Of a stretch of DNA of 37,658 nt, positions 14,504 to 21,056 are shown in pieces; the first letter of the stretch is position 1; each line of letters opens with the position of its first letter. Under the pieces are notes generated by a model. That model saw nothing but the letters and a program-made list of their open reading frames with translations, did not search any database and was not told the DNA's origin. The stretch is taken from contig DASZFO010000114.1 in NCBI GenBank assembly GCA_035939775.1, forward strand, positions 1 through 37,658, in the 5' to 3' direction. The DNA is from Pirellulales bacterium. Lineage in GTDB: Bacteria > Planctomycetota > Planctomycetia > Pirellulales > DATAWG01. The position numbers and the translations under genes are program-made.

Positions 14504-16852
14504 ATGCGCGCGGATCCGCCTGCTGAAGTCGTCGAGTTGCTCGCGCGATTGCAATTGGCAACCGCTTCAGATATGCGCCGCGTTTTTAAGCGAGCAAAGC
14601 AACTGGCCGGTGTTCTTCCTTTGTTTCCGTCGATTTGGGTCGACGCGCTGGCCCAGGCCCGTGCGATTACGCACTATCAAGCCGCTGAGATCAATGCCGG
14701 GCGCGGCGACCAGCTTGCGGTCGGTCCGTTTGTGCTCATTGAGCTAATCGAATCAGTCGGTTATGCCGCTTGCTTTCGCGCCCGGGAGCCGGGATCGCGG
14801 CGGGAGATCCGATTGCTGACGGCCAACGTTGGCACAGCTTCTCGACCTGGCACTCATTCGGACCGGGAGGGAGAAAGGGTGCAAGCTGAGGATCAAAGAA
14901 TAGCAGATCGAATCTCCGAGCTGGTGAGGAGGATGGCCGACGTTGAGAATTGCAGCGTCGATCGGCCCGCGGCCGGCGGGATCGACGGCCAGCGGCTCTG
15001 GATTGAGTATCCCGAGAGTGACGCGACGCCATTGCGCGATCTGGTTTTGCGCTCCGGGCGGTTGCCGGGCGATATGGTGCTGGAAATTGCACGGCAAATG
15101 GCGGCCGCCCTAATGATTCTGAAGACTTCCGGGATCCTGCACGGCGACGTTTCGACCACTACGGTCGCGATCACGATCAATGGCTCTATCCAGTTGAGAT
15201 ATTGTGGCGTACGCGACATTTTGCGGCCCGAGGAAGGGTTTTCGCGCGCGGACTTATCGCCGGACGCGTACGATTTCCTTGCTCCCGAACGCGTCGCGAA
15301 CGCGGCGCCCCCCAGCATTGGAAGCGATCTATTTGCATGCGGCTGCGTTTGGTGGAACCTGCTCACTGGAAGGCCGCCGCTGGGCGGCGGGACCAGCTTG
15401 GGCAAGTTGCGCGCGGCGCATGCGGCGAAGATCGTTGATGTGCGGCGGATCGCGCCCGCCGCTCCAGGCGTGCTCGTCGCGGCGATCGCCGCTTGCACGC
15501 AACGCGATCCTCTGCGGCGCCCCGAATCGTTTGCAGCCCTGGCCCAAGCGCTTGGCCAATCTACATCGGCCGGACGGCGAGCCGCCGAAGTAGTAATGGT
15601 CCGTCGGCAATGCAATGGGCGCGGCGTGGCGAAGACCGTCCGACGGGCGATTCGATCGAAGGAAGCGCCCGCATGGATTGCTGCGGTCGTCGGCTGCGTT
15701 GCCGTCATTTCATTCGTCTCGTGGCCGCTATGGCGAACGCGGGCCCAGCCGCAAGTCGCATTGGGCATTTCGCGCATTGAGTCTGCCGCGAGCGGCGGGG
15801 CGAAATCAGCAGCGAGTCACGCCGAAATGATCCATGTCCCAAATCCACATGAAGCGGTCGTGCGGGCCGAGTTTCTCGATCGCGATGCGCTGGCTAGCCG
15901 CGCGCAACCAATGGTTCTGTCCAGCGGAAAGACGAGCTGGGATCCCCAGTTGTTAGCACTGCGAGCGGGCCAAACCGTTCGCGGCCGGCCCGGCGAGCGG
16001 CCTCTTGTAGCGGTGCCGCCCGGTGGAATTGTCGTCGCCGTCGAGGATGTGCGGTTCGAAAACGTCGATTTCGTTTGGCGACCGTCGCCGGACGCGGCCA
16101 TCGATCCACAGCGCGTCGCACTCATAGATATGCGAGCGGCCTCGGCTTCGTTTCGCGGCTGCACGTTTCGAGCCACGGGGGATGAGCGGATCGGCCGGCC
16201 AATCGGGATTGCCTGGCGTGGTCCTCGCCGCTCTCAAGCGCTGTCTCCAGCGGGCCGCCTTCAAATAAGCGGCTGCGTCCTTAGCGGGACGGCTGCCGGA
16301 ATCGATTGCCAGTCTGCAATGCCGATGGCAATCAAGATCAGCGACACGCTTGATCTCGGCGGCGGACCGCTGCTTTGTCTGGATCATACCCCGCGGATCG
16401 ACGAGCCTATTGAAATCGCGCTAAGCGGTTCAACACTTCGCGACGCAGCGGCTCTCATCGGCATTCACGTTGATCGATTGCCGACGGAAGAACCGGGAAC
16501 GATCGGCATTACGACGAATGACTGCGTCCTTGCGCCAAGCCGCGGCGGCGCGGTGGTGCTTTTTGCCACTCCCGTTCGGCCGACAACACTCTCCAGGGCC
16601 TTGCAATGGTCCGGGCAAGGGTCGCTTCTCGCGGCCGATTCGCGAGTCGGCGATTGGCTGAAAGTGGGCCGACAGCGTTCCGAGGAAGTCGAGATATCCG
16701 TCGACGGCCTGGTCTCCGGCCAGGTCCAGTTCGCCGGCCCGGCCGACGCGGGTTCGTCGGCCTCGCGGGTCACGCGCTGGCTCGCCCCGATACAATCGGC
16801 CGAACCGCCCGGCATCCCCGACGGGCTGCCAAACCTGCCGTGGATGCCATGA
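14504..16852 (+). CDS. Membrane-anchored serine/threonine pseudokinase
   Basis: The 782-residue protein has an N-terminal helical region (1-75), a kinase-like domain (about 75-350), one membrane segment (about 388-412, WIAAVVGCVAVISFVSWPLW) and a large C-terminal domain on the other side. Kinase-fold marks are the ILHGDVS loop (His213-Gly-Asp215), FLAPERV (APE motif) and SDLFACGCVWWNLLTGRPP (helix F). Key residues are lost: no VAIK-type Lys is evident, the catalytic-loop Asn is Thr220, and DFG is Tyr233-Cys-Gly. Phosphotransfer is therefore unlikely. The C-terminal part has repeated short strands such as VRFENVDFVW, ASFRGCTFRA and LQISGCVLSG, suggesting a parallel beta-helix. It is probably a sensor or scaffold. 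Confidence 0.75.
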   Translation: MRADPPAEVVELLARLQLATASDMRRVFKRAKQLAGVLPLFPSIWVDALAQARAITHYQAAEINAGRGDQLAVGPFVLIELIESVGYAACFRAREPGSRREIRLLTANVGTASRPGTHSDREGERVQAEDQRIADRISELVRRMADVENCSVDRPAAGGIDGQRLWIEYPESDATPLRDLVLRSGRLPGDMVLEIARQMAAALMILKTSGILHGDVSTTTVAITINGSIQLRYCGVRDILRPEEGFSRADLSPDAYDFLAPERVANAAPPSIGSDLFACGCVWWNLLTGRPPLGGGTSLGKLRAAHAAKIVDVRRIAPAAPGVLVAAIAACTQRDPLRRPESFAALAQALGQSTSAGRRAAEVVMVRRQCNGRGVAKTVRRAIRSKEAPAWIAAVVGCVAVISFVSWPLWRTRAQPQVALGISRIESAASGGAKSAASHAEMIHVPNPHEAVVRAEFLDRDALASRAQPMVLSSGKTSWDPQLLALRAGQTVRGRPGERPLVAVPPGGIVVAVEDVRFENVDFVWRPSPDAAIDPQRVALIDMRAASASFRGCTFRATGDERIGRPIGIAWRGPRRSQALSPAGRLQISGCVLSGTAAGIDCQSAMPMAIKISDTLDLGGGPLLCLDHTPRIDEPIEIALSGSTLRDAAALIGIHVDRLPTEEPGTIGITTNDCVLAPSRGGAVVLFATPVRPTTLSRALQWSGQGSLLAADSRVGDWLKVGRQRSEEVEISVDGLVSGQVQFAGPADAGSSASRVTRWLAPIQSAEPPGIPDGLPNLPWMP

Positions 16853-17497: not shown

Positions 17498-18022
17498 CTA
17501 GTTGGACTTGCGCAAGCGATCGTAGAGCAACAGCCCCACGATCGTCTTTGCGTCGCGGATTTGCTTGGAATCAATCATCCCGAGCGCTTCGTGCCAGGGA
17601 ACGACAAACGTCCTGATCTGCTCACCGCGCTCGGGGCGCGCCGGACCCGGCTCGAGGTCCCGGGCGACGAAAAAATGCATCCGTTCGTTGAGAATTCCCG
17701 GTGAGACCCAGAACTCGTGCAGCTTCTCGAACGAGCGGGCCCGATAACCGGTTTCTTCGATCAATTCGCGCTCGGCCGTTTTCAGCGGGATCTCGGGAGG
17801 ATCGATTGTGCCGGCCGGCAGCTCGATCAATTCTTCATCAACCGCCAGGCGATAGTTACGGATCAGGCAGACGTGATCCTTATCCACCAGTGGCAATATG
17901 ACTGCGGCGCCCGGATGCACGACCGTTTCGCGGCTGAGGGTGGTCCCGTCCGGCAGCAACCGTGACTGTCGCACGACTCGAAATCGCTGAGTGTCCAGCA
18001 GTATTTCGTGGCCTTCCGTCAC
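17498..18022 (-). CDS. NUDIX hydrolase, ADP-ribose pyrophosphatase-like
   Basis: The 174-residue protein carries a complete Nudix box at residues 71-93: G-x5-E-x7-R-E-x2-E-E-x-G, seen as GTIDPPE…AERELIEETGY. The preceding VCLIRNYRLAVDEELIELPA is the strand pair typical of the ADP-ribose/NDP-sugar pyrophosphatase branch (NudF/YffH). The enzyme would split ADP-ribose or a related nucleoside diphosphate into two phosphates using Mg2+. The start is a GTG at 18022 with GGAG eight bases upstream. The divergent M50-like gene begins 119 bases away, and promoters for both probably lie in that gap. Confidence 0.88.
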   Translation of the reverse strand: MTEGHEILLDTQRFRVVRQSRLLPDGTTLSRETVVHPGAAVILPLVDKDHVCLIRNYRLAVDEELIELPAGTIDPPEIPLKTAERELIEETGYRARSFEKLHEFWVSPGILNERMHFFVARDLEPGPARPERGEQIRTFVVPWHEALGMIDSKQIRDAKTIVGLLLYDRLRKSN

Positions 18023-18141: not shown

Positions 18142-19203
18142 ATGCGGGAAACCTCGAACTGGTCGCTGAATTTCGGACGATTTGCCGGAGTTCCTGTTCG
18201 GCTGCACGGGTCGTTCATTATTGGCGCGATGTTTGCCATCTACATCGCCGGGCGATCGTCGACCGACCACGATTATACATTTTACGGCTTTCTTGCCGTG
18301 CTGGTTTGGTTCGGAAGCGTCCTGATCCATCAATTTGGGCACTTGGTCGCGGCGTGGCGAATCGGGGCTAACGTCGACCGAATTGTCATTGGTCCATTGG
18401 GCGACATGGTCCCAGCGACCGTGCCCCACGAACCGCATCGCGAGCTTGCCGTGGCGCTAGCCGGCCCCGTAGCGCAGTTGTTGGTTCTGGTGATCGTGAC
18501 ACCGGCCTTAATTGTCGCCAAGGAAAACGTGATGGAGCTGGTGCTTTCACCGCTGGGCCCGCACAATTTGGTCGCTGGTGGCCCGAATGGCGAAGGCTTT
18601 TGGCTCGTGACGCTGAAGCTGATATTCTGGTGCAACTGGCTGTTGTTTCTGGTCAATATCCTTCCCGCTCTTCCGCTCGACGCGGGACGGGCGCTGTTTT
18701 GCGGCTTACGACCGGCGCTTGGCGACAGAGTGGCGATCGACGCGGTGGCGCGCGGTGGCCTGATCGTGACGGTCATCGCGCTAATGCTATGGTCGTTTTT
18801 CGCGCAAGGAGGTCCGGAAACGCCGTTGGTGCCAGCATGGTTGCCATTGTCGCTCTTGATGCTGCACCTGTTTTTCACCGCCAGGAACGAAGTGGCTCGA
18901 TTGGACGACGATGAGCGAGACGGCGATTTGTTGGGCTACGATTTTTCGCAAGGCTATACGAGCCTCGAACGGGGCGGTGATAACCCGCGGCGCCGCGGGC
19001 CGAATTTCATCCAGAGCTGGCTCGAAAGGCGGCGCGAGCAAAAACGACGGCGCGCTCGCGAGATTGAAGAAGAAGAAGAACGCCGCGTGGATGAAATCCT
19101 CGCCCGTGTCAAAGATGCGGGGATGGCCGGCGTGTCCCCAGAAGAGCGGGCGCTGCTAGATCGCGTTAGCCAACGCTATCGCAATCGACAGGGGAATCCG
19201 TAG
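18142..19203 (+). CDS. Site-2 protease (M50) family membrane protein with altered active site
   Basis: The 353-residue protein has several membrane segments and the family's two hallmark motifs, but the first is changed. The zinc motif HExxH reads His63-Gln-Phe-Gly-His67 (ATCCATCAATTTGGGCAC), so the catalytic Glu is Gln. The second motif, N-x2-P-x3-L-D-x-G (Asn172 to Gly182), is intact. The zinc could still be bound, but proteolysis should be much reduced or absent. After the membrane part comes an Arg/Glu-rich coiled coil (RRAREIEEEEERRVDEIL) and a helical tail (GVSPEERALLDRVSQRYR) that I recall at the C-termini of other planctomycete membrane peptidases. One base change (GAA to CAA) would explain the substitution. 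Confidence 0.8.
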   Translation: MRETSNWSLNFGRFAGVPVRLHGSFIIGAMFAIYIAGRSSTDHDYTFYGFLAVLVWFGSVLIHQFGHLVAAWRIGANVDRIVIGPLGDMVPATVPHEPHRELAVALAGPVAQLLVLVIVTPALIVAKENVMELVLSPLGPHNLVAGGPNGEGFWLVTLKLIFWCNWLLFLVNILPALPLDAGRALFCGLRPALGDRVAIDAVARGGLIVTVIALMLWSFFAQGGPETPLVPAWLPLSLLMLHLFFTARNEVARLDDDERDGDLLGYDFSQGYTSLERGGDNPRRRGPNFIQSWLERRREQKRRRAREIEEEEERRVDEILARVKDAGMAGVSPEERALLDRVSQRYRNRQGNP

Positions 19204-19391
19204 TGGCTGTACCGGATTTGTTGAAGATGGCGCACAGGGTAACCATTTAGCATGGTTCCGGAATGCCTCGCGTCGACTGGCGACCGATGGGATGCGCCGC
19301 GGACTTGGCGCTTCTCTCGATTTTCGCAACTGAATCTGAACTAAACTTGGATTTGGAAACCAGTTGCGAACACGCGGCATTCCCGTATTCC

Positions 19392-21056
19392 ATGTCCAGT
19401 ACGCCTTCGCTAGTTGATAAGTCGGCCGATTCGCTCCTGAGGCGGACGCTCGCGCCGCGATTGATTGCGATTCACGCGGAATTGGAAAAGTGGTTCGAGA
19501 CCGACCTGAAGGTATTCGACACGGTGGCCGATGTCATCGTGGAGCCCGGAAGTGGGCGGCTGCCAAGTCTTCCTGCATATTGGGGCGATCTTTGCCGCGA
19601 GGCGTCGAACTGGGAGCGCCCCGAATTCCTCGTCTGCGATGAACCGCTTCTGGCGTTGGCAATTCCGATCCCCGGCGGACTCGATCATCGGTATGTCGCG
19701 GTAGGGGTATTCTTGTCGCATCGCCTCGATGCCGATGCCGACATTGCTCGCGTTGAGCAAGTGCTCGGCTGGTCGCGGGCGGAGATCCGCCAATGGGCCG
19801 CGCGACAAATCCCATGGCAGCCGTCACGGTTGCTCGCCCTCGCCGAATCGATTCAAGCCCGATTGGCGGCCGAGCTAAAGGTGCAGATTCTCGCGACCGA
19901 GGATCACGAGTTGTCGGCGACCATCTCGGCGATGTACGAAGAGATTAGCCTGCTCCACCGACTTACGCAGCATTTGCGGATTTCGGAAAGCAACGAGAAT
20001 CTGGCTCGATTGGCGCTCGAATGGCTCGGCGAAGCGGTTCCCGCCCAGTCGCTGGCGATCGAGCTTTTTCCTGTCCGCGGCGCAAACGGTTCACCACAAT
20101 CGGGCCGAAGCGAATCGATCTTCCTGACGCGCGGGGATTGCCCGTTTGGCGCAGCGGGTTTTCGCGCCGTGATCGACGAACTCGGCCTCGACTCGGACGC
20201 TCGAGCGCTGGTGATCAATTCCCCGTCGTCGTTCGAGCTGCGCGACCGATTTCCCCAAATGCGTCAAGCGGTCCTGGTGCCGCTGTTCGACGGGCAACAT
20301 TTGTTCGGCTGGCTCGGGGCATTTGATCATCGCAATGGCGGCGAATTTGGTTCGCCCGAGGCCAACTTGCTCGGGAGCGTGAGCGCGATCCTCGCCGTCC
20401 ACGCAAGCAATCGAGATCTATACGGTCAGCAGGCCGAATTCCTTGAGAGCATGGTGCGAGCGCTTACATCGGCCATCGACGCCAAGGACCCCTACACCTG
20501 CGGTCACAGTGATCGCGTCGCTCGCATCGCGGTTGCCCTGGCAACGGAATTGGGGTGCGACCGAAAGCAACTAGAAACGATCTACCTCTCGGGCCTTTTG
20601 CACGATATCGGCAAGATCGGGATCAACGACAACGTCCTACGCAAGACGAGCAAGCTCACGGATGCCGAATATGAGCATATCAAGCTCCATACGGAGATCG
20701 GTTACAAGATCCTTTGCGACCTGAAACAACTGGGCGACGTGCTCCCTGTCGTCCGGCATCACCATGAGGCTTGGAACGGCGCTGGCTATCCGCTGCGCTT
20801 GGCAGGCGAGCAGATTCCCTATTTGGCTCGGATCGTCGCAGTGGCCGACGCCTTCGATGCCATGTCGAGCGATCGACCGTATCGCAAGGGGATGTCCGAC
20901 GAGCGGCTCGATGAGATCCTGCGTCGCGGGGCCGGCTCACAGTGGGACGCACGGGTCGTCGACGCGTTCTTTCGCATCCGCGACGGGATTCGTCAATTCG
21001 TCCGCCGCGAACCTGAGAACGAGCCGGTGAACGACGAGATATTGCATTTGTCGTGA
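19392..21056 (+). CDS. HD-GYP domain phosphodiesterase with GAF-like sensor domain
   Basis: The start at 19392 (MSSTPSLVDK, 554 residues) is preferred over the upstream ATG at 19263, whose extra 43 residues look non-coding. Residues about 190-340 form a GAF-like sensor region (LARLALEWLGEAVPAQSLAI … VLVPLFDGQHLFGWLGAF). The C-terminal 190 residues are an HD-GYP domain: HSDRVARIA, LLHDIGKIGI (His404-Asp405), HTEIGYKIL, VRHHHEAWNGAGYP (Gly-Tyr-Pro 465-467) and DAFDAMSSDRPYR. All metal-binding residues I can check are present, so c-di-GMP hydrolysis is likely. There is no receiver domain and no membrane segment, so the signal should be sensed in the cytoplasm. Confidence 0.9.
   Translation: MSSTPSLVDKSADSLLRRTLAPRLIAIHAELEKWFETDLKVFDTVADVIVEPGSGRLPSLPAYWGDLCREASNWERPEFLVCDEPLLALAIPIPGGLDHRYVAVGVFLSHRLDADADIARVEQVLGWSRAEIRQWAARQIPWQPSRLLALAESIQARLAAELKVQILATEDHELSATISAMYEEISLLHRLTQHLRISESNENLARLALEWLGEAVPAQSLAIELFPVRGANGSPQSGRSESIFLTRGDCPFGAAGFRAVIDELGLDSDARALVINSPSSFELRDRFPQMRQAVLVPLFDGQHLFGWLGAFDHRNGGEFGSPEANLLGSVSAILAVHASNRDLYGQQAEFLESMVRALTSAIDAKDPYTCGHSDRVARIAVALATELGCDRKQLETIYLSGLLHDIGKIGINDNVLRKTSKLTDAEYEHIKLHTEIGYKILCDLKQLGDVLPVVRHHHEAWNGAGYPLRLAGEQIPYLARIVAVADAFDAMSSDRPYRKGMSDERLDEILRRGAGSQWDARVVDAFFRIRDGIRQFVRREPENEPVNDEILHLS

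Follow-up and report, generated by a model that had tools for sequence, protein, structure and literature searches.

The locus described here raises the question of whether a protein with the fold of a site-2 protease (S2P) can be kept by a bacterial lineage for something other than proteolysis. It lies in a stretch of 37,658 nucleotides from a Pirellulales bacterium (contig DASZFO010000114.1 of assembly GCA_035939775.1), hereafter referred to as the window, in which an ATG-started open reading frame (18142..19203, + strand) encodes an S2P-fold (M50) membrane protein of 353 residues that is predicted to be a pseudoprotease. The original prediction, which proposed HQxxH in place of the HExxH motif, is confirmed at the level of the bases: CAT CAA TTT GGG CAC (18328..18342, +) reads His63-Gln64-Phe65-Gly66-His67 in frame, and the catalytic glutamate of active M50 proteases is absent. 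The window contains a single instance of the degenerate HQFGH pattern, and 100 shuffles contain none.

Fold and active-site residues

Membership of the S2P membrane core fold, likewise part of the original prediction, is supported by both sequence and structure comparison. The product matches Peptidase_M50 of Pfam (E 3.7e-8, 33.4 bits against a cut-off of 27.2), and its closest solved structure by sequence is M. jannaschii S2P (MjS2P; 3b4r; E 7.3e-11), in an alignment that pairs His63-Gln64-x-x-His67 with HExxH and Asn172..Pro175...Asp180 with NLIPAFPMD. An AlphaFold2 model built on a 49-row alignment (mean predicted local distance difference test score, pLDDT, 86.6; predicted template modelling score 0.73) has MjS2P (3b4r_B) as its top structural match, with Z 20.1 and a root-mean-square deviation of 3.5 over 210 residues, and Foldseek gives E 1.5e-8 for the model against 3b4r. 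The Z values are 15.1 and 13.2 for SpoIVFB and approximately 10 for RseP structures, the comparison covering mainly residues 44–270. In the model His63 to His67 sit in helix 46–73 and Asp180 starts helix 180–221, their blocks having pLDDT 93–96.

The protein resembles MjS2P and SpoIVFB (8vjl, 8vjm), which are S2Ps without a PDZ domain, in the core fold, the re-entrant loop and the order of the motifs, with H-x-x-x-H followed by N..P...D. It differs from them in having HQxxH for HExxH, PxGD for PxGG and LDA for LDG, and it has no CBS domain match in Pfam but a DUF6576-like tail instead. The zinc-binding residues, originally described as kept together with an N-x2-P-x3-L-D-x-G motif, are indeed present (His63, His67 and Asp180); by sequence and by the 3b4r alignment the third zinc-ligand motif is N172-I-L-P-A-L-P-L-D180-A-G-R (18655..18690, +), which follows the pattern N-x2-P-x3-L-D-A-G, with Ala for the Gly that follows the retained Asp. 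The re-entrant loop is altered as well, in its PxGG motif, orthologue columns identifying P85-L-G-D88 (18394..18405, +) as a PxGG in which the second Gly has become Asp (G88D).

Published work, cited here from excerpts of the papers, bears on both substitutions. In SpoIVFB, E44Q `completely abolishes' proteolysis, yet the protein was purified and imaged with substrate (PMC11486902), in agreement with the original description of Glu-to-Gln as the laboratory trapping mutation. The same source places the re-entrant loop directly in front of HExxH and describes the substrate as joining the loop as a strand. PxGG is named as the re-entrant-loop motif in a study of E. coli RseP (PMC4597795), in which G68C, at a position equated here with position 88 by motif, was the sole non-complementing one of 15 loop Cys mutants, the model substrate still being cleaved. 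Binding without cutting, as first proposed for the window copy, is plausible; however, given G88D in the substrate loop and the defect of RseP G68C, a clean substrate trap is only one possibility.

Loss of the active site in the orthologous family

When 296 genomes of the order were searched, 199 contained matches at E <= 1e-5; many of the weaker matches are partial or belong to other kinds of M50 protein. The sequences taken were the stronger matches, to about E 1e-17, with some rows left out (e.g. G175:C67), together with the best 80 of 128 loci of named organisms; some of the named loci, including those of Planctomycetales bacterium 10988, a Pirellula sp. and several Pirellulales, encode the very proteins that the order search had yielded. 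Removal of identical proteins and of five partial or broken rows (L028, L065, L079, L182 and L218) left 149 distinct rows. L065, L079 and L218 have in-frame stops or a split reading, with REAAR in addition in L065, and are either broken copies or assembly faults. At residues 63, 64, 67 and 180, 117 rows have His-Glu-His-Asp (HEHD), Glu being present in all of these by definition, and 32 are altered, as HERD (13), HERA (6), HQHD (5), QERA (3), HDHD (2) and one each of HEQD, YERA and HERP. All 57 rows unique to the named-organism set are HEHD. By family code, alterations are found in 2/2 rows of f1, 28/38 of f7, 1/9 of f16 and 1/6 of f2; in genus g65 of f7 the second His is missing in 14/14 rows, the Asp in 11 and the first His in four. 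HDxxH for HExxH is seen in L030 and L062, which belong to two separate lineages.

Trees were built without the four site columns from 95 rows (mixture model) and from 102 rows (LG+G4, with a long-branch warning for L220, which is intact), and a further tree of 130 rows included these columns. Each of the three requires a minimum of five changes between the intact and altered states, four of which are forced by well-supported (starred) branches in the 95- and 102-row trees. When the five HQ rows were constrained to group together the log-likelihood fell by 154 and the approximately unbiased test gave P = 2.5e-10; a single origin of Gln is therefore rejected and this residue arose at least twice. 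The direction of change, from intact to altered, is deduced from how widely the intact state is distributed. As judged from these sequences, the active site (Glu, His or Asp) has been lost several times within the orthologous family across the order.

The window's family is represented by two genomes, that of the window and one of another genus (L003). The L003 orthologue is 58% identical to the window protein and has HQIGH, with CAG as the Gln codon, compared with CAA in the window. Gln is thus conserved in both sampled genomes of the family, as the original prediction suggested checking, and the loss of Glu in the window gene is not isolated. The accompanying concern that orthologues with Glu would expose the Gln as an isolated error is not borne out, because L003, although of another genus, also has Gln; an isolated sequencing error was rejected on this ground. 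The two proteins also share the loop substitution: position 88 is Gly in 113 of the 117 intact-motif orthologues and Asp or Glu in none, and Asp88 occurs in only two of the 149 rows, those of the window and L003.

The altered copies have uninterrupted reading frames, and the remainder of the protein is under constraint. Across 48 intact members of the order, 27 columns reach a conservation of at least 90%; of these the window protein keeps 24, deviating at E64Q, G88D and L331V, and L003 deviates at E64Q and G88D; the intact members themselves deviate at 0 to 5. The closest altered pair (L076/L081) has a ratio of nonsynonymous to synonymous substitution rates (dN/dS) of 0.068. For pairs at 54–62% identity the median ratio of nonsynonymous to synonymous differences (pN/pS) is 0.378 in altered proteins (72 pairs) and 0.447 in intact proteins (69 pairs), and the value for the window against L003, 0.402, falls inside the 5–95% range of the intact pairs; with synonymous sites near saturation and overlapping pairs, these values show purifying selection but not fine differences. 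Relaxed selection in the window's family was rejected since pN/pS is not raised. The terminal branch of the window in the 95-row tree is 0.42, near the median of 0.43.

The C-terminal tail and neighbouring genes

A C-terminal tail of cytosolic type (residues 300–351; 19039..19194, +) resembles DUF6576 by Pfam and hhalign and is predicted to form a helical hairpin, with helices 289–326 and 333–351 in the AlphaFold2 model (blocks with pLDDT 90–97). The Pfam match of the window protein to DUF6576 (PF20216) has E 0.0048 and 17.5 bits, which is under the curated cut-off of 27.3, and the domain is found at E <= 1 in 28 of 36 members of the M50 orthologue family. One further DUF6576 match is present in the window's genome, and it is a rhomboid (L101). 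All 20 genomes of a sample from the order and family have one protein over the DUF6576 cut-off; 19 of these proteins are rhomboid-like by sequence (the exception being L201), and both rhomboid and DUF6576 were detected by Pfam in 9/9 scanned. Profile–profile comparison with the rhomboid tails (L101 and L183–L200) using hhalign indicates homology, with a probability of 98.7% and E 4.3e-16 for tails of intact S2P homologues and 98.1% and E 1.4e-13 for those of altered ones, compared with E 0.05 to 0.5 for five column-shuffled controls and E 0.71 for rhomboid cores. The tail is retained in the altered copies. A literature search, from which subscription journals were mostly absent, listed no paper with the word DUF6576.

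The M50 gene is flanked by a divergent gene for a NUDIX hydrolase (17498..18022, −; PF00293, E 6.9e-13), which serves as a gene-order marker, and by a gene 59 bases downstream for an HD-GYP/HD_5 protein (19263..21056, +; PF13487, E 1.9e-33), a possible operon partner. Matches to the NUDIX protein occur in 84/140 loci and to the HD-GYP protein in 50/140, duplicates included, and one or the other gene is in place in 22 of the 24 altered loci for which flanks are available, the exceptions being L044 and L089. The altered gene is therefore retained under selection with its neighbours kept, as expected of a pseudoprotease. A paralogue mix-up was rejected because HExxH is kept in all six further M50 proteins detected in the window's genome and the altered copies mostly retain the NUDIX/HD-GYP neighbourhood. 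A single-protein scan of genome contigs found no relative. The genes neighbouring the M50 locus give no clear indication of function. Elsewhere in the window a kinase-like protein (14504–16852, +; Pkinase, E 3.2e-9) has the catalytic loop HGDVSTTTV and no DFG motif visible by eye, so that a pseudokinase is possibly encoded near the predicted pseudoprotease.

Possible function and alternatives

Loss of the active site with the rest of the protein kept suggests a second job besides cutting, and since Glu-to-Gln kills SpoIVFB and the family survives the loss of zinc ligands, the function that is kept is most simply one independent of cutting. The window gene is considered, with moderate confidence, to encode a pseudoprotease of S2P origin that probably works as a binding or adaptor protein by means of its fold and tail. 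Such a protein would no longer cut, its S2P fold would bind membrane segments, and its cytosolic tail would present or hold the bound segments by docking a cytosolic partner. As His63, His67 and Asp180 remain, the window copy may still bind zinc and substrate, and Asp88 may complete the destruction of the groove or substitute for the missing acid. The adaptor role is modelled on the catalytically dead form of the rhomboid YqgP acting with FtsH: Bacillus YqgP S288A still hands substrate to FtsH, an open active site being needed (PMC7231995). Because a rhomboid of the same genomes has a homologous tail, one guess is that the two share a cytosolic docking partner.

Several points weigh against this assignment. 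FtsH as the partner of the tail is suggested by analogy, and the adaptor role of YqgP needs its N-terminal rather than its C-terminal domain (PMC7231995). The window copy retains its zinc ligands, so that its loss of function may be recent or incomplete, and G88D may be a compensatory change instead of a sign of degeneration. The window's family is represented by two genomes only, and the pN/pS pairs, which overlap, are not independent, with synonymous sites near saturation.

Alternatively, the protein could still be a protease whose catalytic acid has been displaced: Asp88, on the re-entrant loop, would do the work of Glu64, with Gln64 and Asp88 forming a linked pair. Position 88 is the sole column of 353 at which both family members gained an acid while the share of acids among the 117 intact orthologues is below 10%, and it lies on the loop directly in front of HExxH (PMC11486902); a second, independent HQ group (L067, L072 and L082) also has a loop acid, Glu91, which occurs in four of the 117 intact rows. 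However, that group retains Gly88 and also acquired acids elsewhere, such as Glu20 (0/117; usually Arg or Lys), so that its loop acid may be due to chance, and Gly at position 88 is sensitive in RseP (PMC4597795). A displaced acid is considered improbable. Retention of all three zinc ligands in the window protein and L003 would also be consistent with a functional S2P of low activity for which Gln64 suffices, but this explanation is disfavoured by the abolition of SpoIVFB activity by E44Q (PMC11486902) and leaves the HExxR and QExxR relatives unexplained.

The joint alteration of two active-site motifs, together with the broken orthologue L065 (in-frame stop and REAAR) and the stop in L218, could instead indicate a functionless gene on its way out. 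Such decay is unlikely in view of the pN/pS of 0.40 against the sister genus, which is within the range of intact pairs, the retention of 24 of the 27 strongly conserved columns and the unexceptional terminal branch. Finally, the window derives from a single metagenome-style assembly of 384 contigs, in which an assembly or base error at 18331 is conceivable; the finding in a genome of another genus of Gln encoded by a different codon, accompanied by the same rare G88D, leaves this explanation close to refuted. The pseudoprotease assignment may, more tentatively, be extended to a whole bacterial S2P family with a second function, centred on the tail and independent of cutting, which would account for loss of the active site at least four or five times. 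The unrelated S2P and rhomboid folds would then share a cytosolic docking tail as an adaptor pair resembling that of endoplasmic reticulum-associated degradation, and the catalytic acid in the window's family may have moved to the loop (Gln64 with Asp88); this wider proposal is considered possible but doubtful.

Inactive homologues of HExxH proteins are common and the Glu is most often replaced by Gln (PMC3650047). Natural HQxxH, with the same Glu-to-Gln change in the zinc motif and predicted inactivity, is found in ACE3 (PMC1925091) and some ADAMs (PMC3650047), which differ from the window protein in being soluble or ectodomain zincins unrelated to S2P. The iRhom and Derlin pseudoproteases and the dual rhomboid YqgP (PMC3149277, PMC7231995) likewise use an intramembrane-protease fold without cutting, and the rhomboids of the present genomes have a C-terminal tail in common with the S2P-like protein, but the window protein has a different fold and catalytic chemistry. 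Within the S2Ps, the plant chloroplast pseudoprotease EGY3 is similarly described as inactive and conserved, and the excerpt of that report calls it the only S2P-family pseudoenzyme and plant-specific (PMC9355673); an excerpt of a review gives HExxH as present in all S2Ps (PMC10202637). The present case differs from EGY3 in being bacterial and in involving repeated independent losses within one orthologous family. No paper on bacterial S2P pseudoproteases was among those listed by the literature search, with the same restriction on subscription journals.

A bacterial family in which the active site has been repeatedly lost under selection would constitute a natural series, from the intact motif through HQxxH and HDxxH to the loss of all zinc ligands, that allows a non-proteolytic role of an intramembrane protease to be tested, and the tail common to the S2P homologue and the rhomboid offers a handle for finding a common partner.
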